From Peribacillus loiseleuriae (GTDB lineage: Bacteria; Bacillota; Bacilli; Bacillales; DSM-1321), in the NCBI RefSeq assembly GCF_001183985.1, contig NZ_LFZW01000001.1, forward strand, positions 145,261 through 209,260: DNA of 64,000 bases, in the 5' to 3' direction. The notes beneath the pieces are model-generated. The model worked only from the letters and a program-made list of their open reading frames with translations. It was not told where the DNA came from and made no database searches. Of this stretch, positions 8,851 through 62,092 are shown one piece after another. How positions within the stretch are numbered: position 1 is the stretch's first letter; each line of letters opens with the position of its first letter. Made by a program: the position numbers and the translations under genes.

Positions 8851-8909
8851 TATCCTGTTTTTACATGAATGGGGAAAAAATTATGGGAGGAGGATTGTGT
8901 CAGTACTAA

Positions 8910-9072
8910 TATAAGCGCCAGAACTAAGCTCGGACGATATGGCTTAGTTGACGAGGTGGAGGTTTATCGAGATTTCGGCGGATGCCTCCCGGTTGTATGT
9001 GTATAGCCGCAAAAATTTCGATTTTAAAACAGCTGGGCAACTTGCTGCACAAAGGATCGGAAATACACATAA
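8910..9072 (+). ncRNA. glmS ribozyme (glucosamine-6-phosphate-responsive)
   Basis: Self-cleaving RNA that uses GlcN6P as cofactor and triggers decay of the glmS mRNA, giving feedback control. The sequence carries the class core: cleavage context ATA-AGCGCCAGAACT (predicted cut between 8914 and 8915), GAGGTGGAGGTTTATCGAG, the conserved GGCGGATGCCTCCCGG, and the closing pairing TGTGTAT/ATACACA (about 8998 and 9063). It lies directly upstream of glmS on the same strand. Boundaries are approximate. Confidence 0.95.
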
Positions 9073-11220: not shown

Positions 11221-13116
11221 GTGTGCGGCCGAGCCTAGGTCGTATCATATAACGGGTGGGATTCCCGTCGAGTAAGAATTAGCCATTCGCTCGTAGCGAG
11301 TCTTGGAGGGCTAAAGGTAACTTTAGTCCTTAAGCGTAGACAGTTAGGTGGCGGGCCGAAAGCCAAAAGGATGAAGGGATTGAGCTCCATAATGTTAGTG
11401 AATCGAGAGGGCTGATGCCTTACCTGCAGCAGAAAGCTACATTTTATCCTGCGTTAAAAGGCAAGAAGGATAAAACCTCTCTGAAGTCAGAGACCTTGGC
11501 ACGTTACACATTGATATGATACGGCAACTCGGGAGACCCTACCGGTCTTTTCTTCCTTTTAGAAGAGTATGGTGTACAAGCGATAATAAGCAAGGAAACC
11601 AAATGCCGATGTAGGAAAGGCTAGCTACCAGTTATCACCCTTATTAGGGACACATTTACTACACACAGAGGTAGGTATAATAAATGGAAACAAAACTACT
11701 AAGGATAGCAGAATTAGCAAAATCTGATCCTAAAATGAAATTTACATCTCTTGCACATCTTTTAAATAAGGAAGCATTAGTTCAATGTCATCATGAACTT
11801 CCCAATAAGAGGGCAACTGGGATCAACGGTACAACTAAAGAGCAATACGGTGAAAGTTTAGAAGAAAACATAGAGGATTTAATAAGTAGGCTTAAAAGCA
11901 AAAGTTACCGTCCTGTTCCAGTAAGGAGAATGTACATTCCAAAGCTCAGTTCAAACAAGAAAAGACCATTGGGAATACCTGAACATGAAGATAAAATTGT
12001 TCAAAAAGGCATTACAAAGATACTTAATACCATTTATGAAAATGACTTTCTAGATTGTTCATTTGGATTCCGTTCAAATAGGAGTTGCCATGATGCTTTG
12101 AAAATACTGAACCACTATATTGAAAAGAGGTCAGTAAATTATGTAGTAGATGTAGATATTAAAGGATTCTTCGACAACGTTGACCACATATGGATAATGG
12201 AGTTCTTAAAACTGCGAATCTCTGACCCTAACTTACTAAGAATGATTGGTAGGTTTCTTAAAGGTGGATATATGGAGGAAGGTAAGAAACATAGAACAGA
12301 TAATGGTACACCGCAAGGTGGAGTGATATCTCCGGTATTAGCCAATGTGTATCTTCATTATGTCCTCGACCTTTGGTTTGAGAAAAGGGTAAGAAAACAG
12401 TGCAAAGGACAAGCATACATAGTGAGATATGCAGATGATTTTGTCTGTTGTTTTCAATATAAGAGCGAAGCTCAGGAATTCTTCCAATCATTAAAACTTA
12501 GATTAAAGAAGTTTAAACTAGAGATAGCTGAGGATAAAACTAAAATTATTCCCTTCGGGAGGTTTGCGGAGAAAGATGCGAAACAAAAGGGAAATAGAAA
12601 ACCAGCAACCTTTGATTTCCTAGGTTTTACACACTATTGTGGGAAGAGTAAACAGGGAAATTTTCGAGTGAAAAGGAAATCAAGCAGGAAGAAAGTCCAA
12701 GGCAAACTTAAGGAATCAAAAGAATGGTTGAAGAATAATAGAAATAAAGATATTCATATGATTATGGATAGATTTAAACGCTCACTAATAGGTTATTACA
12801 ACTATTACTGCATCACAGATAACATCCAAAGTGTAAACAAATTCAAAGACAAAATCGGATACATACTGTATAAATGGCTCAACAGAAGAAGTCAAAGGAA
12901 ATCCTTTACATGGGATAAATTCAGACTATTTCTTGATAAATATCCACTACCTTCACCAAGAGTTAAGGTCAATATATATGACTTAAGAAAAGAGATTAGC
13001 TACATTTTGTGAATGATAACTAGGAGGAGCCGTGTGCGTGAATAGCGCAAGCACGGTTCTGTGAGGGGGGAGGAACACAATCTACCGAAAGGTAGAAAGG
13101 TTCCCTTCTACTCGAC
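11221..13116 (+). mobile_element. Group II intron, apparently complete
   Basis: A retro-element of about 1.9 kb. The 5' end fits the group II rule (GTGTGCGG at 11221), an RT/maturase ORF sits in the 3' half, and domain V is seen at 13027-13059 (GAGCCGTGTGCG paired with CGCAAGCACGGTTC). A domain VI-like hairpin follows (CTACC-GAAA-GGTAG at 13082-13095) and a 3' end of TTCTACTCGAC ending in AC at 13116. The encoded protein has no endonuclease domain. It inserts in non-coding DNA about 130 nt after the glmS terminator. Ends are read from consensus, not from an empty-site comparison. Confidence 0.85.
11684..13012 (+). CDS. ltrA: Group II intron reverse transcriptase/maturase
   Basis: Multifunctional intron protein that helps splice its own intron RNA and copies it at new sites. 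In 442 residues it shows RT blocks in order: the NKEALVQCHHELPNKRATGI start, KRPLGIPEHEDKIVQ, GFRSNRSCHDAL, VVDVDIKGFFDNVDH, NGTPQGGVISPVLANVY, the catalytic IVRYADDFV box, and DFLGFTHY. A thumb/maturase X domain follows. It then stops without a D/En (HNH) domain, so retrohoming would have to use single-stranded or replication-fork DNA. The frame is intact and all catalytic Asp residues (in DVDIKG and YADD) are present, suggesting a potentially active element. Confidence 0.93.
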   Translation: METKLLRIAELAKSDPKMKFTSLAHLLNKEALVQCHHELPNKRATGINGTTKEQYGESLEENIEDLISRLKSKSYRPVPVRRMYIPKLSSNKKRPLGIPEHEDKIVQKGITKILNTIYENDFLDCSFGFRSNRSCHDALKILNHYIEKRSVNYVVDVDIKGFFDNVDHIWIMEFLKLRISDPNLLRMIGRFLKGGYMEEGKKHRTDNGTPQGGVISPVLANVYLHYVLDLWFEKRVRKQCKGQAYIVRYADDFVCCFQYKSEAQEFFQSLKLRLKKFKLEIAEDKTKIIPFGRFAEKDAKQKGNRKPATFDFLGFTHYCGKSKQGNFRVKRKSSRKKVQGKLKESKEWLKNNRNKDIHMIMDRFKRSLIGYYNYYCITDNIQSVNKFKDKIGYILYKWLNRRSQRKSFTWDKFRLFLDKYPLPSPRVKVNIYDLRKEISYIL

Positions 13117-35899: not shown

Positions 35900-37324
<1,425 letters not shown>

Positions 37325-37406: not shown

Positions 37407-38888
<1,482 letters not shown>

Positions 38889-40220: not shown

Positions 40221-40270
40221 TACACATAAAGTTAACCGTGTCTTAACAATTACATTACAATATTCTGGTA
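40221..40270 (+). promoter_or_regulatory. PhoP-binding region (Pho box) of the Ugp-type operon
   Basis: Successive hexamers TACACA (40221), TTAACC (40232), TTAACA (40243) and ATTACA (40254) are each separated by exactly 5 nt, an 11-bp period; a weaker CTGGTA follows at 40265. This is the known architecture of Bacillus PhoP targets (TTAACA-like direct repeats). A candidate -10 box TATATT lies at 40291-40296, with the start codon at 40332. Confidence 0.8.
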
Positions 40271-40331
40271 TTCAATAGATTTATAGATGATATATTGATA
40301 GAGATTTGAACAACATGTAGGAGGTCCAACC

Positions 40332-41426
40332 TTGGAAGTACAAATGAAAGATGTCACGATGCAATTCAATAATATAACTGCTGTAGATCGCATGAATGTT
40401 ACGATTGAAGACGGTGAACTAGTTTCTATGCTAGGTCCTAGTGGTTGCGGGAAAAGTACAACTTTATTTATGCTGGCAGGATTGTACAAACCAACTGCTG
40501 GTGAGATATTCTTTGGAGATCGTCTCGTGAACAAAATTGAACCAGAACACCGTGAAATTGGCATGGTGTTTCAAAACTATGCCTTGTACCCGCATTTATC
40601 CGTTTTAAAGAATATTATGTTTCCTTTGAAAATGAGGAAAGTATCTAAAGGGGAAGCGGAAGAGCTTGCAAGAGAAATGGCAAAACTCGTTCAAATTGAT
40701 CATCTATTGGATCGTAAGCCTGGACAATTATCAGGTGGGCAACAACAACGTGTTGCAATAGCGCGAGCATTAGTAAAAAAGCCAAAAATCCTTCTCTTAG
40801 ATGAACCTCTATCTAATTTAGATGCTAGGCTCCGTCTAGAAATGAGAGAAGAAATAAGACGAATTCAGCAGGAAGTCAAAATAACAACGATTTTCGTTAC
40901 TCATGACCAAGAAGAAGCCATGAGTATTTCCGATAAGATCTTATTAATGAAGGATGGGAAGTTTCAGCAGTTTTGTCCGCCGCAAGAGATGTATGATCAT
41001 CCAGAAAATGAGTTCGTGGCTAGCTTTTTAGGAAGTCCTCCTATTAATCTATTTCCAGCTTCTTTGATGGACAACTTAAAAGATGTTTCGATTAGCGGAA
41101 CTAACGATGTCATTACACTTTCATCTCCTTTGAAAGAAGGAATGGACCCTGCAAGGCAAGTAACGTTAGGTATAAGACCAGAGGATTTTTATATTGAAAC
41201 AGATGAAAAGAAGCAAGGGATTCTCGGAAAAACCATTATGGTAGAAAGAATTGGCCGCGATAACTTGTTAAATGTAGAAGTTCAGAATAAAACGGTTCGA
41301 GCCATAGTATCTCCAGATTTACGAATTGAGCGTGGGGATGTTGTGAAATTAGGCATTCTCCCTGAACGTGCCCATTTGTTCGCTGTTCATACCGGAGAAA
41401 ATTTACTTGATTCGAAATTACGATAG
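40332..41426 (+). CDS. ugpC: ABC transporter ATP-binding protein, UgpC/MsmK type
   Basis: Energises the importer formed with the next three genes. The 364 residues show the Walker A GPSGCGKST, Q-loop VFQNYALYPH, signature LSGGQQQRVAIARAL, Walker B ILLLDEP and switch His in FVTHDQEEA, then a C-terminal TOBE regulatory domain (about 240-364) as in MalK/UgpC. TTG 40332 is used because GTAGGAGG lies at 40317-40324. First gene after the Pho-box-like repeats. Placing the ATPase first differs from E. coli ugpBAECQ, where it comes fourth. The symbol is by similarity; substrate is not proven. Confidence 0.88.
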   Translation: MEVQMKDVTMQFNNITAVDRMNVTIEDGELVSMLGPSGCGKSTTLFMLAGLYKPTAGEIFFGDRLVNKIEPEHREIGMVFQNYALYPHLSVLKNIMFPLKMRKVSKGEAEELAREMAKLVQIDHLLDRKPGQLSGGQQQRVAIARALVKKPKILLLDEPLSNLDARLRLEMREEIRRIQQEVKITTIFVTHDQEEAMSISDKILLMKDGKFQQFCPPQEMYDHPENEFVASFLGSPPINLFPASLMDNLKDVSISGTNDVITLSSPLKEGMDPARQVTLGIRPEDFYIETDEKKQGILGKTIMVERIGRDNLLNVEVQNKTVRAIVSPDLRIERGDVVKLGILPERAHLFAVHTGENLLDSKLR

Positions 41427-41435
41427 GAGGGAGCT

Positions 41436-42329
41436 TTGTTGAACGATACGCCAACCATTGGAAAAACACTTAAAGCTTTGCTCTATTTAGCTCCCGCCCT
41501 CCTTATTATCGGTACGTTTAATATTTATCCAATCATCAAGTCATTTTTAATGAGCTTTTATACCGACTATGATTATTTTAAAGATATTGTTAATGAGCGA
41601 GGACTAAGTAACTATAGCTATATTTTCCAAGATCCAGAGTTTTGGCTTTCTATGAAAAATACGATGATCTTTGTGATCGGTGTTGTACCCATTTCTATCA
41701 TCTTATCTTTGGGAATTGCCGTTTTATTGAATCAAAAGATAAAATTTAGAGGTTTTTTCAGAACCGTGTATTTCATTCCATTTGTTACATCTGTTGTGGC
41801 CGTTTCCATCGTATGGCGTTGGATTTTCCACACTCAGTATGGATTACTTAACCACTTCCTTGGTTTCTTTGGAGTATCGCCAATCAAGTGGTTATCAGAT
41901 CCGCAAATGGCCATGCCAGCGCTTATTATTTTAGCGGTTTGGAAGGGGCTCGGTTATAACATTATTATCTTTTTAGCGGGGTTACAAAATATTAATCAGC
42001 AATACTATTTAGCAGCGAAAATAGATGGAGCATCGTCTTGGCAAAGATTTAAAAACATCACAGTTCCATTGTTATCATCAACCACTTTCTTTATTTCAAT
42101 TATATCAATAATCAACTCGTTTAAAGTATTTGATGAGGTGTTTGCGTTATTTGGTGGACAACCAGGTCCTGCAAATAGTGCACAAACCGTTGTGTATTAT
42201 ATCTTTAATAAATTTTATGGAGAATGGGACTTTGGTGTTGCATCAGCAGCCGCTTATGCTTTGTTTATCGTTATTTTTATCCTGACCCTCGTACAATTAT
42301 ACGTGGGTAAACGTAAGGTCAACTACTAA
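41436..42329 (+). CDS. ugpA: ABC transporter permease, UgpA/MalF type
   Basis: Inner-membrane permease of 297 residues with six predicted helices and the cytoplasmic EAA-like loop AKIDGASSWQRFKNITVPLL that docks the ATPase. TTG 41436 (or the next codon TTG 41439) is taken as start, 9 nt after the ugpC stop and behind GGAGGGAG. It pairs with the following UgpE-type permease. The family imports sn-glycerol-3-phosphate, glycerophosphodiesters or other small organic solutes; the apparent Pho control favours a phosphorylated substrate. Confidence 0.88.
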   Translation: MLNDTPTIGKTLKALLYLAPALLIIGTFNIYPIIKSFLMSFYTDYDYFKDIVNERGLSNYSYIFQDPEFWLSMKNTMIFVIGVVPISIILSLGIAVLLNQKIKFRGFFRTVYFIPFVTSVVAVSIVWRWIFHTQYGLLNHFLGFFGVSPIKWLSDPQMAMPALIILAVWKGLGYNIIIFLAGLQNINQQYYLAAKIDGASSWQRFKNITVPLLSSTTFFISIISIINSFKVFDEVFALFGGQPGPANSAQTVVYYIFNKFYGEWDFGVASAAAYALFIVIFILTLVQLYVGKRKVNY

Positions 42330-42345
42330 TGAAGGAGGGAGAAAT

Positions 42346-43170
42346 TTGCAAAGAGAAGCTCTCTCAAAAGGTTTTGTATATACGTTATTAATAATTGGTG
42401 GTCTGTTAATGATTTTGCCATTCGTATGGATGATTAGTACCTCCTTAAAAGCGCCAAATGAGGTCATGATCATGCCACCGAAATGGATCCCAGATATTTT
42501 CCACTGGGACAATTATGTAACTGCTTGGACGATGGCTCCATTTGCTCGCTATACATTGAATAGCCTAGTTGTTGTAATTGCCAGCACAATTGGTGAATTA
42601 ATTACGACGATATTGGCCGCTTATGCCTTTTCGCGAATTAACTTTTATGGACGAGATATTGCGTTCGCTGTATTACTTGGAACAATGATGGTTCCAGGTG
42701 AAGTATTGTTAATTCCTAATTTCGTCACACTAGCCAATTTAGGGTGGATTGACCAATACGAGGCGCTCATTATCCCTTGGTTAGCAAGTATTTTCAGTAT
42801 TTTTCTATTACGACAATTTTTCCTTTCGATTCCAAAGGAGTTATCATTTGCTGCAAAGATTGACGGATGTAGTGATTTTCGGTTTTTATGGTCTATCATG
42901 GTACCACTTGCAAAGCCGGCTTTAATCACGATTGCTCTATTAAAAGCAATCGGTAGCTGGAATGCGTTTTTATGGCCACTAATCGTAACAAGTTCTGAGA
43001 ATATGCGTACTCTTCCAGTAGGATTAACGTCTTTCAGTACAGACGCAGGTACGATGTATGAGCTATTAATGGCTGCTTCTACAATGATTATCTTACCAAT
43101 GATTATTTTATATATCATTCTACAAAAGTACATCATTGAAGGAGTAGCGAGAGCGGGTATTAAAGGGTAA
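42346..43170 (+). CDS. ugpE: ABC transporter permease, UgpE/MalG type
   Basis: 274-residue permease with six predicted helices and the EAA loop FAAKIDGCSDFRFLWSIMVP. Signature stretches LPFVWMISTSLKAPNEVMIM and the C-terminal YIIEGVARAGIKG are typical of the carbohydrate uptake 1 (CUT1) permeases. TTG 42346 is preceded by GGAGGGAG at about 42334. It is 16 nt after the ugpA-like gene and forms the second half of the channel. Confidence 0.88.
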   Translation: MQREALSKGFVYTLLIIGGLLMILPFVWMISTSLKAPNEVMIMPPKWIPDIFHWDNYVTAWTMAPFARYTLNSLVVVIASTIGELITTILAAYAFSRINFYGRDIAFAVLLGTMMVPGEVLLIPNFVTLANLGWIDQYEALIIPWLASIFSIFLLRQFFLSIPKELSFAAKIDGCSDFRFLWSIMVPLAKPALITIALLKAIGSWNAFLWPLIVTSSENMRTLPVGLTSFSTDAGTMYELLMAASTMIILPMIILYIILQKYIIEGVARAGIKG

Positions 43171-43290
43171 AGAATGTTTGAAAAGTCATGAAACGGATCA
43201 TGTGAATGACTTTAAGGAGGTGGTGTTCCACCACGTTGAATTCCAGCAACATGCAAGATAATAATTAAACGTTAACGGAGGGTTTATTAG

Positions 43291-44634
43291 GTGAAAAGAT
43301 TCCTTTTACTAGCTATAACAGCCATTTTGACATTTGCTTTAGCCGCTTGTTCAAATGGTTCAACTGCAAAAACGAATTCATCAAATAGCGAAAAATCAGA
43401 TTCAAAAAATGGACAAACGAGTGGGATCACGACAACGATTGATAAACCAGTTACGATTGAATTTTGGCATGCAATGACCGGACATTTAGGTGAAACACTA
43501 CAAAAAATGACAGATGAATTTAACAATTCACAAGAAAATATTACAGTTAAACTTGTGAGCCAAGGGAACTATGGCGATCTATCTAAGAAAGTAATGGCTT
43601 CTGCAAAAGCGCGTACTTTACCTGTCATGTCACAGGCCTATGAAGATTGGATGACACAATATATCCAAAATGACCTCATTACAGATTTAACACCTTATGT
43701 GCAAGATGAGAAATATGGGTGGACGGACGAGGAGTACAACGACATTGTAAAGGTTTTCCGTGATGCGAATACTTGGGATGGAAAATTATATGGAGTACCG
43801 TTCAATAAAAGTACAGAGATTCTTTACTATAATACAGATATGTTTAAAGAAAATAATTTAGAAGCTCCAACGACTTGGGAAGAGCTACGTAATGCTGCGC
43901 AAAAGTTAACGAATAAAGATAAAAAAGTTGTAGGGCTAGGGCTTGAGAATTCAATTGGCACTTCATTCCCTACATGGGTGAGACAAGCTGGTGGAACGTT
44001 CCTTGATGAAGGAAGTAACAAAATTATGTTTGATTCACCAGAAGGAAAAGAAGCACTTGAATTCTTAAATGGCATGATGGTAGATGGAATTGCACGATTA
44101 GCTGGAGAAGATGAATACATGTCTAACCCATTTGGTCGTGGAGACACAGGTATCTATATCGGATCGTCGGCAGGTATCCCATTTGTGTCACAAGCAGCAG
44201 AAGGTAATATTAACTGGTCTGCGGCTCCACTGCCAAAAGGTAAAGTGGGAGCAACTTCTTTCCAAGGCACCAACATAACAGTATTTTCTTCTGCAACAGA
44301 TGAAGAAAAACTAGCAGCATGGGAATATTTGAAATTTATGACAAGCAAAGAGCAAACGGTATTCTGGGCGAAAGAAACGGGATACATTCCTGTTCGTACA
44401 TCTGCACTAGAAGATCCAACTTGGAAGCAATATATCGAGGAAAACCCAGTGTACGGTGTGGGACAACTACAATTTGAATCTGGCTTCTACGATCCACGTC
44501 CAGTCGGGGCTTTTGATATGAAGAATGTTGTATCAAAAGAAGTTCAATCCGTTCTTCTTGGACAAAAAAAAGTTGATCAAGGTTTAGCAGATGCAGCAAA
44601 AGGTGCACAAGACGCACTAGATAAAGCGAAGTAA
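43291..44634 (+). CDS. ugpB: ABC transporter substrate-binding lipoprotein, UgpB type
   Basis: Extracellular solute receptor of 447 residues. A lipoprotein signal peptide (MKRFLLLAITAILTFALAAC, lipobox LAAC, Cys20) is followed by a Ser/Asn-rich linker and the CUT1-type binding fold (IEFWHAMTGHLGETLQKMTD, then WDGKLYGVPFNKSTEILYYN). Similar wording appears in glycerol-3-phosphate-binding UgpB proteins. GTG 43291 follows GGAGGG. The 120-nt gap after the permease gene may hold a processing or differential-expression element. A partial hairpin at 44680 follows. Confidence 0.88.
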   Translation: MKRFLLLAITAILTFALAACSNGSTAKTNSSNSEKSDSKNGQTSGITTTIDKPVTIEFWHAMTGHLGETLQKMTDEFNNSQENITVKLVSQGNYGDLSKKVMASAKARTLPVMSQAYEDWMTQYIQNDLITDLTPYVQDEKYGWTDEEYNDIVKVFRDANTWDGKLYGVPFNKSTEILYYNTDMFKENNLEAPTTWEELRNAAQKLTNKDKKVVGLGLENSIGTSFPTWVRQAGGTFLDEGSNKIMFDSPEGKEALEFLNGMMVDGIARLAGEDEYMSNPFGRGDTGIYIGSSAGIPFVSQAAEGNINWSAAPLPKGKVGATSFQGTNITVFSSATDEEKLAAWEYLKFMTSKEQTVFWAKETGYIPVRTSALEDPTWKQYIEENPVYGVGQLQFESGFYDPRPVGAFDMKNVVSKEVQSVLLGQKKVDQGLADAAKGAQDALDKAK

Positions 44635-44679
44635 TGAAGAAAGAAGCAGAAAAGGATATTCTTATTTACTAATAAAACA

Positions 44680-44727
44680 AAGAGGTTGTCTTTGGGGTCA
44701 TAGCCCTAAGCTTTTAGGCAGCCTCTT
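44680..44727 (+). promoter_or_regulatory. Hairpin between the Ugp-type operon and the MBL gene
   Basis: AAGAGGTTGT/GCAGCCTCTT long stem with a large internal loop, without a T-run; perhaps a leaky terminator that lowers expression of the two downstream hydrolase genes. Confidence 0.45.
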
Positions 44728-44768
44728 ATCAAATGAATTTGATAATTTGAATGGATGGGGTGATTTGG

Positions 44769-46172
44769 GTGGCAACACTCGAACGGACAAATATTCGTTT
44801 TTTTGGTGGGTTACGAACAATTGGTGGAACAATCGTGACAGTGGAATATAAAGATTCTAGAGTTGTGTTTGACTTTGGATTAAAATACGATCCTGCCAAT
44901 AACTTTTTTGACGGAAAGCTTCAATTGCGCACAACTTCCATTGTTCAAGATTATTTACGTTTAGGCATGATTCCAAAGATAGATGGTCTATATTCCGAAA
45001 AGGACTTAGCGGGAAATGAAGGCGTTATTCCTGCAGAATTAGACAAACGGCAAACAGCTGTGATTATTTCCCATATCCATCTTGATCATATTGGTGCCAT
45101 GGGAACGATTGCTCCTGAAATACCTGTATATCTTACAAGCGATTCACTAAAGCTCTATCATGCTCTTGACACGATCGGAGAAGGTGTGCCAGGGAACAGA
45201 GATTATCAGAACTGTGATTATGACCAATCTTTCAGTGTTGGCGAAATAATAGTTACTCCAATCCAAGTAGATCACGACATATTAGGAGCCTGTGCATTCC
45301 ATATTGAAACGCCAGAGGGGTCTATATTCTACACGGGTGATCTTCGATTACATGGTAACTATCCAGAACGAATCGAGCAAATGATTCAAAAAGCAAAAGA
45401 ATGTGGTTTTGATGTTCTTATTATGGAAGGAACGACTTTAAATAGTGTAGAAGTACAGCGAGATTCGATGGTTTCAACGAATAAAATTTTTGAAGACCTT
45501 TTAACGGAGGCTCAATTGCCGAGAAAAATGGTAGAAGCTTTAGAAGAAGCAAAAGGGGTTGGCTGTTTCAATATTTATAATCGAAACCTTGATCGAATAG
45601 AAGGTATTTTAACAGCAGGAAAAAGTAGTAAACGAATCGTAGTATTTGAACCGGAACTGGCATATCTTGCATCCTTGTTCATGCCTGAAAGTGAATTCGC
45701 TGTTTATTTATCTTCCCAAACGAAAGAAGAGATGAAGAACGATTCATTATTAGAATGGAAGAAAGCTGTACTCGAGCGATATGAAACATTGGATGCTGTC
45801 CAAATCAATGAAGACCCTTCGCGTTATTTTGTACAAAATAGTTATGAACAGACAATGGAGATGTTTGATTTACACGTAGAAAATGGCGTTTATATTCATT
45901 CAAACGGCGTACCGTTGGGGGATTTCGATCCATCTTATCAAAACTTGAAAAACTTCTTAAAAAGAATCGGTATCAATCACGTACTTGTTGGAACATCAGG
46001 CCACGCGATTCCGAATCATTTACAATATATTGTAGACGAACTCGATCCGGATTTCTTAATTCCACTTCATAGTTTTCATCCGGAACGATTAATTCCTAGG
46101 CGCGGTAAGCAAGTATTACCTGAGTATGGTGTGACGTATGTGTTGAAGAACCACGAGTTAACAAAACAGTAA
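44769..46172 (+). CDS. Metallo-beta-lactamase-fold protein, RNase J-like
   Basis: Cytosolic MBL-fold hydrolase of about 467 residues. The metal site HxHxDH is seen in IISHIHLDHIGAMG, further ligands in VDHDILGACAFHIET and FYTGDLRLHGNY, and the C-terminal His in LIPLHSFHPER. The layout (MBL, beta-CASP-like insertion, MBL) resembles RNase J or predicted phosphodiesterases, but it lacks the C-terminal RNA-binding domain of RNase J. GTG 44769 is preferred (GGATGGGGTGA upstream), with ATG 44751 possible. It follows the importer and precedes a phosphoesterase, suggesting that it acts on an imported phosphodiester. Substrate inferred only. Confidence 0.75.
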   Translation: MATLERTNIRFFGGLRTIGGTIVTVEYKDSRVVFDFGLKYDPANNFFDGKLQLRTTSIVQDYLRLGMIPKIDGLYSEKDLAGNEGVIPAELDKRQTAVIISHIHLDHIGAMGTIAPEIPVYLTSDSLKLYHALDTIGEGVPGNRDYQNCDYDQSFSVGEIIVTPIQVDHDILGACAFHIETPEGSIFYTGDLRLHGNYPERIEQMIQKAKECGFDVLIMEGTTLNSVEVQRDSMVSTNKIFEDLLTEAQLPRKMVEALEEAKGVGCFNIYNRNLDRIEGILTAGKSSKRIVVFEPELAYLASLFMPESEFAVYLSSQTKEEMKNDSLLEWKKAVLERYETLDAVQINEDPSRYFVQNSYEQTMEMFDLHVENGVYIHSNGVPLGDFDPSYQNLKNFLKRIGINHVLVGTSGHAIPNHLQYIVDELDPDFLIPLHSFHPERLIPRRGKQVLPEYGVTYVLKNHELTKQ

Positions 46173-46309
46173 GAGTGAGCATTGGCACTAGAAATATCAT
46201 ATCTCATAAACTTGTTGGATTTACGATCTTATAAATGATTATATTCGAGATAAATAGAAATTCATATTCTGGTTCTGATTAAAGAGCTAAAAAACAATGG
46301 AGGTGATAC

Positions 46310-47935
46310 ATGGTGGATAACGACGAAACAATTAAGTTAACCATTCTTTATACAAGTGATATTCACGGAAGCATCTATCCAATTAACTATGCAAATAACG
46401 AGACGGTCGAATGGGGATTAAGTAAGATAGCCACGAAGGTTAAGATGGAAAGGGCCGAAGATCCCGATTTACTATTGATTGATAATGGTGATCTGATTCA
46501 AGGCTCGCCCTTAACCTATCATTATGGACAATTTTTACAGGATAAAGAACATCCGATGGTACGCCTTTTAAATCATTTATCATATGATGCGGCCATCATT
46601 GGCAATCACGAGTTTAATTATGGTCTTGATCTGCTAAATCAAGCTGTAAATGAATCTAATTTTCCATGGTTATCTGCAAATACGATCGATTCAATCTCAG
46701 GTAAGCCATATTTCGGTAGACCGTACATTATCAAAGAAATAAAATCTGTGAAAGTTGCCATATTAGGTATTACGACACATTACATCCCGAATTGGGAAAA
46801 GCCTGAAAATATTCAGGGGATTGAATTTAAAAACACGTTGCAAGAAACGAAGAAATGGGCTTCATATTTGAAAGAAAAAGAGAAACCAGATGTATTAATT
46901 GTTTCGTATCATGGTGGTTTTGAAAGGGATTTAGAAACAGGTGAACCAACTGAAGTCCTTACAGGAGAGAATCAAGGGTTTGCGATTTGTCAGGAAGTTG
47001 AAGGAATTGATGTGTTATTAACAGGTCATCAGCACCGTGAGCTTACAGGCAAGATTAATGGGGTGGAAGTCATTCAGCCATCCTTCAAAGGGCAGGCATT
47101 GGGGAAAATAACCGTAAGCTTGAATAAGCAAAAAGAGATTCTTGAAAAAAACTCCGAATTGTTATGGATGGATGAAGTTGAAGTGGATACAGAGATCCTC
47201 AAACTTACTTTAAAGTACGAAGATGAAACGCAAAAATGGCTAGATACACCCATTGGATTCATTGAAGGAGATATGCGGATAACCGACCCGCTACGAATCC
47301 GAACGCAAGATCATCCACTTATTGAGTTTATTAACAAAGTGCAAATGGATGTAGCTGGTGTAGAAATTTCTAATACAGCATTATTTGATAATACCTCACT
47401 CGGCTTTGGCAACCAAGTAACGATGCGTGATATAGTTTCAAACTATATCTATCCTAATACATTAACCGTTTTGCGCTTATCCGGACATGATATCAAAGCG
47501 GCGCTTGAGCAAAGTGCTAGCTACTTTACTATTGATCAAGCGGGAGAGCTTGCGATAAACCCCTCATTCATTCAGCCGAAGCCGCAACACTATAATTATG
47601 ATATGTGGGAAGGCATTGAGTACATTTTGGATATTACAAAACCAATTGGATTGCGTGTAACAAAATTATATTTTAAAGGCAAGCCCTTAAACCTCGATTC
47701 AATGTTCGATGTTGTGATGAATAATTATCGTGCTTGTGGTGGTGGGGATTATATGATGTTTAAAGATAAACTAGTTGTGAAGGATATTCCAATGGATATG
47801 ACGGAGCTAATTGCGAATTATATACGTAAGAGAAAAACGATCCAAGCGACAGCGAACCACAATTGGAATGTTATTTGGAAAAAAGATCTAGTTACCCTTG
47901 GGAATTCGTATGGCATATCTAAGCAAGAGGAATGA
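46310..47935 (+). CDS. Cytosolic 5'-nucleotidase/2',3'-cyclic phosphodiesterase-like protein
   Basis: Two-domain metallophosphatase of 541 residues of the UshA/YfkN/CpdB family. The N-terminal calcineurin-like domain carries all metal motifs: LYTSDIHGS, DNGDLIQGSP, GNHEFNYG, SYHGGFE and LTGHQHRE. The C-terminal substrate-binding domain shows LSGHDIKAALEQS, YNYDMWEGIEYILDIT and YRACGGGDYMMF. Unusually for a family that is mostly exported, there is no signal peptide; the protein starts MVDNDETIKLTILYT. ATG has GGAGGTGA 6 nt upstream. Placement after the Pho-box-controlled importer and an MBL-fold protein suggests release of phosphate from an imported ester inside the cell. Confidence 0.85.
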   Translation: MVDNDETIKLTILYTSDIHGSIYPINYANNETVEWGLSKIATKVKMERAEDPDLLLIDNGDLIQGSPLTYHYGQFLQDKEHPMVRLLNHLSYDAAIIGNHEFNYGLDLLNQAVNESNFPWLSANTIDSISGKPYFGRPYIIKEIKSVKVAILGITTHYIPNWEKPENIQGIEFKNTLQETKKWASYLKEKEKPDVLIVSYHGGFERDLETGEPTEVLTGENQGFAICQEVEGIDVLLTGHQHRELTGKINGVEVIQPSFKGQALGKITVSLNKQKEILEKNSELLWMDEVEVDTEILKLTLKYEDETQKWLDTPIGFIEGDMRITDPLRIRTQDHPLIEFINKVQMDVAGVEISNTALFDNTSLGFGNQVTMRDIVSNYIYPNTLTVLRLSGHDIKAALEQSASYFTIDQAGELAINPSFIQPKPQHYNYDMWEGIEYILDITKPIGLRVTKLYFKGKPLNLDSMFDVVMNNYRACGGGDYMMFKDKLVVKDIPMDMTELIANYIRKRKTIQATANHNWNVIWKKDLVTLGNSYGISKQEE

Positions 47936-48064
47936 CAAAAAATCAATCTACTGGAACTTTTTGCCCAATCTAATTGTAATTTCATAAACATATCTCTTGA
48001 AAATTAACAAGACCTATGGCAAAGTTAATAGATAATAAGGCACTAAACGAATTGAATAACGAAA

Positions 48065-48156
48065 CATGTAGGGGGACCAGTGTTGCTGGTTGAGACCGTA
48101 TCCAATAGATACATACCCTTGGAACCTGATCTGGTTAAAACCAGCGTAGGGAACAT
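48065..48156 (+). promoter_or_regulatory. TPP riboswitch (THI element)
   Basis: Conserved cores are GGGGGACC, TTGAGACC (the CUGAGA-like box), ACCCTTGGAACCTGATCTGG and CCAGCGTAGGGA, with outer pairing ATGT/ACAT. Thiamin pyrophosphate binding should favour the terminator at 48186-48217 and shut off the downstream operon. Confidence 0.95.
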
Positions 48157-48185
48157 ATTTAAACAGGACTCAATTGTTACGATAT

Positions 48186-60212: not shown

Positions 60213-61898
60213 CTAAGCTCGAATACCCTTTGTCTGTTCGCCTAGCTTGCTAGATAAATCATTGAGCACTTTCCCGATTTCATACGTTCCTTTATATTGT
60301 TCTAGTTGTTCTTGAAAGCTGGATAGCATTTGTTCAGCGCTAGCACTTGTCTGCTGTGATAGTGCTACGTATCTTTCGGAAGATTGTTCAACTTCTGGTA
60401 GGGAATTTTGCAAGTTTTTTAAGATCGATTCAATGAACCGAAGCTTAACGTTGACCTCATCAACATGTGAACTCCATAAATCAATCGAGTCTTTACTCTT
60501 TGATGCTACTTGGACATTTTTGTTGACAATATGATAAATATCCTCAAACTCACGATGTGTCTGGTTGGTTATCCCCTCCATTTGCCCCATCGTTGTAGCG
60601 ATTTCTTCAGCTGCTTTGGAAGATTCATTAGCGAGCTTTCTGACTTCTGTTGCAACAACGGAGAATCCCTTACCGGCTTCACCTGCTCTTGCGGCCTCGA
60701 TCGTTGCGTTCAGAGCCAGCAATTTCGTCTGTTCAGCAACGGACTGAATCAATGAGACGATGGAAGTGACGGAGACTGAATGAGTTTTCAATGTATCCAT
60801 CGTTTGTGTGATGTGTTTAAATTCTTTTTGAAATAAACCTAGTTCATTTACTAGCTGATCCATATGGTTTTTCCCGCTAAGAGAAGAAGCCTCCATCGTT
60901 TTCGAGATGTCAAAAATATGTTGCATTTCCTGAAAGGTCTGGTAAATATCTGCCTTCATTCTTTCAAAAGCAACCATGGATACTTCAGAGCTAACGGCTG
61001 TTTCATCTGCGGCTTTTTTGACCGTTTCTACTTCATTTATCAATTCCTGATTTCGGACTAAAACAACATTTGAGGAAGTTTGCAGCTTGGCTCCGGTTGT
61101 ATGTAATTGATTAGTGGTTGAGCCTATGTTTTGTAGCATGCTTTTCACTGTGAGTAATAATGATTCGAAGCTTTTAACAAGAGATGTTACTTCTGCTGAG
61201 CTCCTTGGGATATCTTTAAGCGATATATCAAAATTACCTTCACGGGCTTCTTTCATGAGCCCACGTAGTTTTTCTAAAGGCCTTGTCAATTGATTAACGA
61301 GTACGATGACAAGAAGAGCTGTAATAATTACACAAGCAATCGTGACTGTGAGAATTGAAAATGCCATTTCATGTATTTTAGTCAAATAGACTTGTTGTGG
61401 TAGAGCGATGACAAAGGCGCCTTTGACTTCTTGAATTTGTTGAAAAGCAAATGTATAGGTAACACCGTTAATTTTTTTATGTAAAATGCCTTTTCCCTTT
61501 TTAGTGATTTCTGTTTGCAGAGACTCAGGGATTGTTATTGTCGTTCTCTGGCTTACAGAGAAAGGGATGGCTTCTTTTCCTTTAATGAGGAAGTAGTCAC
61601 TATGGAGGCCATCTTGACTCATATCCGCGTTTTGGCTTTTAATGACGCCCTCTATTTTTTTGTTGAAATTCTTTTCATCTCCTACATGAAGATACATGAG
61701 GTTTTGCGACATTTGATAAAAAAGCATAACTTCTCTTTTTAAACGTTGTTCGACAGCGGTCATCGTAGCATCTTTTGATTTTGCATAAGACATATAACTA
61801 ATAATACCGGACGTGAAAATTAAGATAAATATTATAAATAGTAAGAGTTTGGTCTTTAAGGACCAGTTTGCATAAAAATTAAATAATTTTCCCATCAT
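60213..61898 (-). CDS. Methyl-accepting chemotaxis protein
   Basis: Chemoreceptor of 561 residues. Two membrane helices (about 16-36 and 180-202) enclose an extracytoplasmic sensor of about 140 residues resembling a single Cache-type domain ([20 protein letters not shown] ... [20 protein letters not shown]). A HAMP domain follows (about 203-256: [20 protein letters not shown]). The signalling domain holds the tip sequence [22 protein letters not shown] in slightly varied, conserved form. The ATG at 61898 or the next at 61895 follows GAAGAGGTGG. Gene stands alone; the ligand is unknown. Confidence 0.92.
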
Positions 61899-62092
61899 CC
61901 ACCTCTTCTTTCTGGGTCTAATTATCCATGAATGATGTTAAAAGTTTGTGAAGGTTATGTAAATTTTTTGTGTAGAAATGTTTGATTGCAGTTCGGAAAA
62001 TGAAGCAAATAAGTATTTCTGATAAATAGAAAAGACGTTATTATGGTAAATTAAAGATAGAAAACATATAGAAAAGGTGGTTTAAAGGATAG

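Follow-up and report, generated by a model that had tools for sequence, protein, structure and literature searches.

The DNA analysed here is a 64-kb stretch (the window) inside the 5.43-Mb genome of Peribacillus loiseleuriae, and six plus strand genes follow one another in it from 40332 to 47935. They encode a UgpC-type ATPase, UgpA- and UgpE-type permeases, a UgpB-type substrate-binding lipoprotein (SBP), a metallo-beta-lactamase/beta-CASP hydrolase (MBL) and a 5'-nucleotidase-family phosphoesterase (NTase), and a candidate Pho box precedes them (Table 1). An earlier sequence-only reading had described an importer of the Ugp type with its ATPase gene first, which was right, though no subunit reached the cut-off of its NCBIfam Ugp model (382.6 bits against 432 for UgpC, 115.3 against 335 for UgpA, 154.4 against 297 for UgpE and 117.1 against 411 for UgpB). 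The nearest named matches for the cluster were those of Cytobacillus depressus and Lederbergia citrea, in which the order of all six genes is identical and each protein is 80 to 97% identical. The gaps in the putative six-gene operon measure 120 bp (UgpE to SBP gene), 116 bp (SBP gene to the MBL open reading frame, ORF) and 137 bp (MBL to NTase gene). A scan of the cluster placed no terminator-like site in the gaps between the six genes, all three that it found lying inside genes. Scanning the cluster for promoters, terminators, Rfam families and RNA folds brought up nothing substantial. The MBL start codon is probably the GTG at 44769 instead of 44751.

Table 1. Features of the importer cluster, in window coordinates.
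Feature	Coordinates	Strand	Basis or remark
Pho box (candidate)	40221-40259	+	four hexamers, 11-bp period; 72 bp ahead of first start codon
UgpC-type ABC ATPase, MalK-like OB/TOBE domain, TTG start	40332-41426	+	Pfam ABC_tran, OB_MalK, TOBE_2
UgpA-type permease	41436-42329	+	Pfam BPD_transp_1
UgpE-type permease	42346-43170	+	Pfam BPD_transp_1
UgpB-type SBP lipoprotein, phosphate ligands Y94, S174, S292, Y365	43291-44634	+	Pfam SBP_bac_8
Possible hairpin between SBP and MBL genes	44680-44728	+	RNA fold of 44635-44768, z -1.63; weak
EF2904-type MBL/beta-CASP hydrolase, predicted cytosolic phosphodiesterase	44751-46172 (ORF)	+	2az4, E 3.4e-52
5'-nucleotidase-family phosphoesterase (NTase), without signal peptide	46310-47935	+	Metallophos + 5_nucleotid_C; 3qfk/4q7f, E 1.8e-106

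Of 398 sampled genomes from the same class, 29, counting the window's own, had an MBL homologue at E of at most 1e-40. When the 29 loci (28 fetched stretches, given L numbers here as genomes are given G numbers, and the window) were mapped by tblastn without regard to reading frames, UgpA, UgpE or UgpB homologues were detected in 24 of them. Ugp permease or SBP genes lay within 1.5 kb in 23 of the 29 MBL loci, in 0 of 30 NTase loci and in 1 of 30 HAD-family phosphatase loci; the NTase and HAD sets each consist of the 30 top-scoring loci, drawn from 107 and 52 genomes respectively, so most HAD genes of MBL operons fall outside the compared set, and counting the ATPase as well gave importer genes at 3 of the 30 NTase loci. 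Seven further MBL loci (L003, L004, L062, L181-L184) all carried the importer. The gene orders observed were C-A-E-B-MBL, C-A-E-MBL-B, A-B-E-MBL, and an MBL gene divergent from A-E-B with no C gene. At one locus (L059) the SBP was of another type. An SBP match of at least 220 bits occurred in 21 genomes, every one of which also had the MBL, and the best SBP in a genome lacking the MBL reached 215 bits, the 220-bit cut having been chosen after the list was seen. The MBL is patchily distributed, with 5 carriers among 150 near relatives, the window's genome included.

Matches to the MBL were also found in 22 plasmid records, five of which were inspected. A Lactobacillus delbrueckii plasmid carries the cluster in pieces, and in one genome (G270) an MBL remnant adjoins an NTase gene (L063 and L176 are these two cases). 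The record OL539428.1 (L062), titled as E. coli plasmid pCTX-M-55, contains a Gram-positive-looking chromosome stretch with LiaFSR, KtrC and the importer-MBL operon, and is probably mislabelled or misassembled. Matches in Thermus brockianus, Rhodothermus and Rhizobium plasmids (23.6-24.9% identity) were set aside as apparently other MBL proteins, with no importer annotated in the stretch shown. A Rieske-type gene after the SBP gene in L042 was taken as unrelated. No relatives of the SBP were found in viral contigs.

The candidate Pho box consists of the hexamers TACACA (40221), TTAACC (40232), TTAACA (40243) and ATTACA (40254), at steps of exactly 11 bp. The PhoP hexamer consensus of B. subtilis is TT(A/C/T)A(C/T)A, and the box fits 21 of its 24 positions, with one mismatch in three of the four hexamers. 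Across 30 copies of the window generated by a second-order Markov model, sites scoring at least 21 averaged 0.27 per copy, versus two observed, the second being stronger and in another part of the window, and within the local 250 bp upstream region the box had a p of 0.006 in simulated sequence, confirming the four regularly spaced PhoP-like hexamers reported earlier. Alignment with C. depressus and L. citrea showed two hexamers and part of a third to be shared; the well-conserved stretch starts within the box, and the DNA above hardly aligns. We surveyed the 250 bp ahead of the leading gene in operons with such an importer, using a threshold of 20/24. A box was present in 12 of 16 operons, whereas of 211 regions preceding other ORFs of these loci 6 had one (Fisher p 1e-12). 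The set of 16 omits four operons (L051, L052, L053 and L062) that were dropped after their missing box was seen, and with these added the box is present in 12 of 20 (p 5e-11); the rows are not independent, because several operons are close kin. One of the four misses in the first set, L181, does have a box scoring 21, but at 263 bp upstream it falls outside the 250 bp surveyed; a divergent HAD gene lies on its far side from the operon. Of the six background hits, four are single scores of 20; the other two precede the window's chemotaxis gene (23) and, in G088, an additional SBP gene of this kind (24/24). The G088 operon itself is preceded by a 22/24 box. The sequence-only reading had proposed control by phosphate starvation, and the box in 12 of 20 related in-line operons supports this as likely.

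Two other occurrences of the box may be recorded here. The extra SBP of G088 (L036, 885-2384) is a second member of the same group, ahead of the operon and with a perfect box. In the window a box stronger than that of the importer cluster (23/24), at 61936-61974 on the minus strand, lies 37 bp before the gene for a methyl-accepting chemotaxis protein (60213-61898, minus strand), which is possibly a phosphate-starvation chemoreceptor.

The phosphatase differed among the MBL operons. Across 37 MBL loci (the window and 36 fetched stretches, which include one broken plasmid copy), an NTase gene was present in 6 (window, L003, L004, L051, L055, L062), a gene for a HAD-family phosphatase in 9 (L039, L040, L045, L050, L054, L060, L061, L181, L183) and an inositol-monophosphatase-like gene in 1 (L059). 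The HAD gene directly follows the MBL gene in L183, which is the place of the NTase gene in the window; it overlaps the end of the SBP gene in L040, and adjoins the MBL gene in L054 though the importer is absent there. In whole-genome counts, made at cut-offs of 1e-15 and 1e-60 and ignoring kinship, 20 of the 29 MBL genomes had the HAD phosphatase, 7 the NTase, none both and 2 neither (G271, G333), and the two occurred together in 3 of 398 genomes versus 14 expected. Genes of a PhnD/C/E importer, whose identity was checked by NCBIfam on eight examples, adjoin 18 of the 30 NTase loci (L067-L096), 15 of the 30 HAD loci (L185-L214) and 0 of the 29 MBL loci. Two unrelated cytosolic phosphatases are thus found with two importer types, the MBL with the Ugp type alone, which suggests that the Ugp type imports phosphodiesters, requiring an extra hydrolysis; the PhnD/C/E importers beside the HAD or NTase gene may carry phosphate esters. 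Separately, L209 and L210 (G059, G025) have a HAD phosphatase gene and a PhnD gene in divergent orientation, with a 23/24 Pho box in between. The HAD protein matched pyrimidine 5'-nucleotidase models, below their cut-offs and among many other HAD models, with TIGR02253 best, so its family adds little to the case for dinucleotides. A HAD-like gene near the MBL gene in L047 belongs to a different family (18% identity), and an inositol phosphodiester was dropped as a substrate, the inositol-monophosphatase-like gene standing at one locus of 37, where the SBP has no phosphate tetrad (see below).

The NTase of the window has both the Metallophos (PF00149) and the 5_nucleotid_C (PF02872) domain, and its N-terminus, MVDNDETIKLTILYTSDIHG, shows no export signal when read by eye, in line with its earlier description as a UshA/YfkN-type phosphoesterase lacking a signal peptide. 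No signal peptide was seen by eye on the MBL either. The proposal of one scavenging pathway from importer, MBL and phosphoesterase, which would have been undermined if relatives mostly carried both hydrolase genes away from the importer, has to be divided: importer genes do accompany the MBL, and the NTase is not a fixed partner, Ugp A/E/B genes being absent from all its sampled loci and Phn importer genes present at 18. Because the MBL is linked to the importer and the NTase is not, the pathway is better drawn as importer, MBL and an exchangeable phosphatase.

The MBL is closest to EF2904 (PDB 2az4) and then to RNase J. All ten residues of MBL motifs 1-4 and of beta-CASP motifs A, B and C are present (D41, H108, H110, D112, H113, H175, D197, E226, H418, H440) and are unchanged in 37 aligned rows (window, EF2904 and 35 fetched) wherever a row reaches, L060 and L061 being fragments. 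Motif C of beta-CASP is His in 34 of the 34 fetched rows that reach it. According to PMC3095777, His at motif C is taken as a sign of RNA substrates, and EF2904 is a hypothetical protein with a beta-CASP structure. On the NCBIfam RNase J model the MBL scored 77.4 bits versus a cut-off of 400, and a 571-residue relative elsewhere in the genome (G000:C1:1741434) is probably RNase J. The label "RNase J-like" given before is thus apt for the superfamily, EF2904 being nearer and the RNase J cut-off being missed.

The SBP has the lipobox LAAC, read by eye. Its closest PDB chains were 7c0x and 7c0f (E 5.6e-48), which we take to be a Thermus SBP, followed by the glycerol-3-phosphate-binding UgpB 9lff (1.7e-29), the hypothetical sugar binder 7bvt (7.6e-28) and the further UgpB chains 6x84 (1.7e-25), 4aq4 (1.6e-24) and 6r1b (9e-23). 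PMC12718374 describes the phosphate as held by two Tyr and two Ser in UgpB, in a glycerophosphocholine-binding protein and in the T. thermophilus protein that binds uridylyl-3'-5'-phosphoguanosine (U3G), itself a UgpB relative, and describes the glycerol in UgpB as clamped by Trp188/191. The residues named there were found in 9lff at a constant offset. In the window SBP the tetrad is complete (Y94, S174, S292, Y365), and Leu and Ser occupy the columns of Trp188 and Trp191, leaving no glycerol clamp. PDB chains that differ from 7c0f in a single tetrad residue (the first Tyr, the first Ser or the third place) fit a ligand-site mutant series. We examined 30 SBPs, the window's own and 29 fetched ones, two of which have no MBL beside them, and allowed Ser or Thr at the third tetrad place. 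The tetrad was complete in 28, the exceptions being L059, which is without it, and L060, a fragment that stops short of the first Tyr; none of the 30 had the double Trp clamp. A tree placed the Thermus chain on the MBL-linked side, and 9lff together with seven of nine other SBPs not beside an MBL. A structure model of the SBP built from three close sequences had a mean pLDDT of 36.3 and was unusable.

The genome contains a second ugpCAEB operon, with two GDPD genes after it. Its binding protein scored 241 bits on the UgpB model versus 117 for the window SBP, and its best box reached 17/24 (p 0.66). Given this operon, glycerophosphodiesters probably have their own importer. The substrate had been proposed to be an intact organophosphate, a glycerophosphodiester or cyclic nucleotide among others; the tetrad in 28 of 30 SBPs supports a phosphate ester, as opposed to a plain sugar, use inside the cell is likewise supported, and the glycerophosphodiester becomes less likely. 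An RNA dinucleotide, a candidate that the earlier reading had not mentioned, would fit the SBP and the beta-CASP enzyme better.

The gene set, the box, the conserved linkage, the intact active-site motifs, the phosphate-ligand residues and the exchange of phosphatases are all legible in the DNA. On this footing we lean towards an importer under Pho control that would take up small phosphodiesters, RNA dinucleotides being the likeliest, and would work by import first and hydrolysis inside. A phosphodiester as the substrate is well supported; the dinucleotide is supported moderately, because of the nearest SBP relative, the RNA-type beta-CASP enzyme and the nucleotidase-family phosphatase. At low phosphate, PhoP would be activated and bind the four-hexamer box. 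The lipoprotein would then capture its phosphodiester ligand (a 3'-5' RNA dinucleotide being the likeliest), which would pass whole through the UgpAE-C transporter. Inside the cell, the MBL/beta-CASP enzyme would split the diester, and a phosphomonoesterase (the NTase in the window, the unrelated HAD protein in other species) would free the phosphate and leave nucleosides; we infer this order of the two hydrolyses, as we do PhoP control and the dinucleotide ligand.

Several observations weigh against this scheme. Five MBL loci (L041, L047, L054, L056, L057) have no importer genes in the stretch read; the genomes of L056 and L057 do encode an importer, some 65 kb off on the same contig, whose SBP is 52-54% identical. 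In 21 of the 37 MBL loci, the stretch read contains neither the NTase nor the HAD gene, nor one of the L059 type. The four added operons (L051, L052, L053, L062), all of C-A-E-MBL-B order, reach a best box score of 19, and 11 of 12 divergent MBL/UgpA regions stay below 20, the exception being L058 with 21. Counts of genomes and loci ignore the kinship of the genomes. The tetrad was present, and the clamp absent, in all nine SBPs that are not beside an MBL; because these share it, the tetrad indicates phosphate-ester binding and does not point to dinucleotides. The Thermus chain sits on a long branch, and its placement has modest support (90/79). The identity of 7c0f as the T. thermophilus UpG (U3G)-binding protein is presumed.

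The most serious competitor is a glycerophosphodiester or a teichoic-acid fragment (a glycerol-phosphate dimer or oligomer), with the MBL as glycerophosphodiesterase and the phosphatase acting on glycerol phosphate. Some MBL-fold enzymes, such as Pce and NAPE-PLD, cleave choline or ethanolamine phosphodiesters; relatives of the SBP bind glycerophosphocholine and glycerol-3-phosphate through the same phosphate residues, and the window SBP has this tetrad free of the tight glycerol-3-phosphate clamp. However, the second ugpCAEB operon with its GDPD genes has no comparable box, the beta-CASP domain with His at motif C points to RNA, and 7c0x/7c0f are nearer (5.6e-48) than the UgpB chain 6r1b (9e-23), presumably the glycerophosphodiester binder of M. 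tuberculosis, so that we regard a glycerol-based substrate as unlikely.

We consider it improbable that the MBL is instead an RNase-type regulator or mRNA processing enzyme of the operon, standing outside catabolism, with a pathway of importer and phosphatase alone. Its beta-CASP relatives in the PDB are RNases and a possible hairpin lies between the SBP and MBL genes, but the MBL is kept with the importer whether its gene follows that of the SBP, lies between those of UgpE and the SBP or is divergent, and the hairpin, examined in the window sequence alone, stands just weakly above shuffles and has no T run behind it. It is very improbable that the importer simply carries a sugar or sugar phosphate and that the hydrolase genes beside it are unrelated. 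The importer does belong to the carbohydrate (CUT1) family, and two ORFs upstream on the same strand (35915-37324 and 37431-38888) look glycosidase-like by eye; homologues of these ORFs are, however, absent from the stretches read around the cluster in C. depressus and L. citrea, and the phosphate ligands, the Pho box and the MBL linkage described above all speak against a sugar.

In its widest form, the phosphodiester reading would comprise a dedicated, Pho-controlled uptake of RNA dinucleotides or short RNA, served by a cytosolic beta-CASP dinucleotidase of its own and by a phosphomonoesterase that can be exchanged, a function for EF2904, and some Phn importers that are importers of phosphate monoesters; we regard this as somewhat less likely than not. 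The parts belong to known families, and what would be new is the pairing of importer, MBL and exchangeable phosphatase, its Pho control and the proposed use of dinucleotides. If true, RNA would be scavenged for phosphate by importing its last fragments, and not by full digestion outside, so that RNA fragments would be a phosphate source imported whole by some Bacilli; some PhnD/C/E "phosphonate" importers of Bacilli would import phosphate monoesters and use the same two phosphatases. The way in which two unrelated phosphatases alternate between two importer types hints that phosphate esters are carried by some importers of Bacilli now annotated for phosphonates or sugars. A function is also proposed for the structurally known orphan family of EF2904, and a ligand for a clade of "sugar/G3P" binding proteins. 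In a literature search by title and abstract that took in few subscription papers, we found none describing the operon or the importer-MBL pairing, and the accessible part of a paper on the Streptococcus suis Ugp system (PMC12001685) has nothing on MBL or nucleotide under the terms searched.

The downstream neighbour of the NTase gene encodes an NMT1/THI5-like protein and is preceded by a TPP riboswitch (48060-48169), which makes the NTase gene the probable end of the cluster. Other RNA elements in the window are a group II intron (11259-13116) and a glmS ribozyme (8903-9072).

UgpBAEC of E. coli is a Pho-controlled importer of glycerol-3-phosphate and glycerophosphodiesters with a cytosolic phosphodiesterase, UgpQ. 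The system of the window resembles it in importer family and in the phosphate residues of the SBP, and differs from it in having no Trp clamp, an MBL/beta-CASP phosphodiesterase in place of a GDPD protein and an extra phosphatase. The same six gene types as in the window recur in L051 in the order C-A-E-MBL-B-NTase. With the Thermus U3G-binding protein the window SBP shares the phosphate tetrad, although it is remote in sequence. The MBL has EF2904 of Enterococcus faecalis as its nearest solved relative; it shares MBL and beta-CASP motifs with RNase J, but is shorter and far below that model's cut-off. The NTase, whose nearest solved chain is the 527-residue 3qfk/4q7f, has the two domains of YfkN, UshA and CpdB, but unlike these it is without a signal peptide and misses the equivalog cut-offs.

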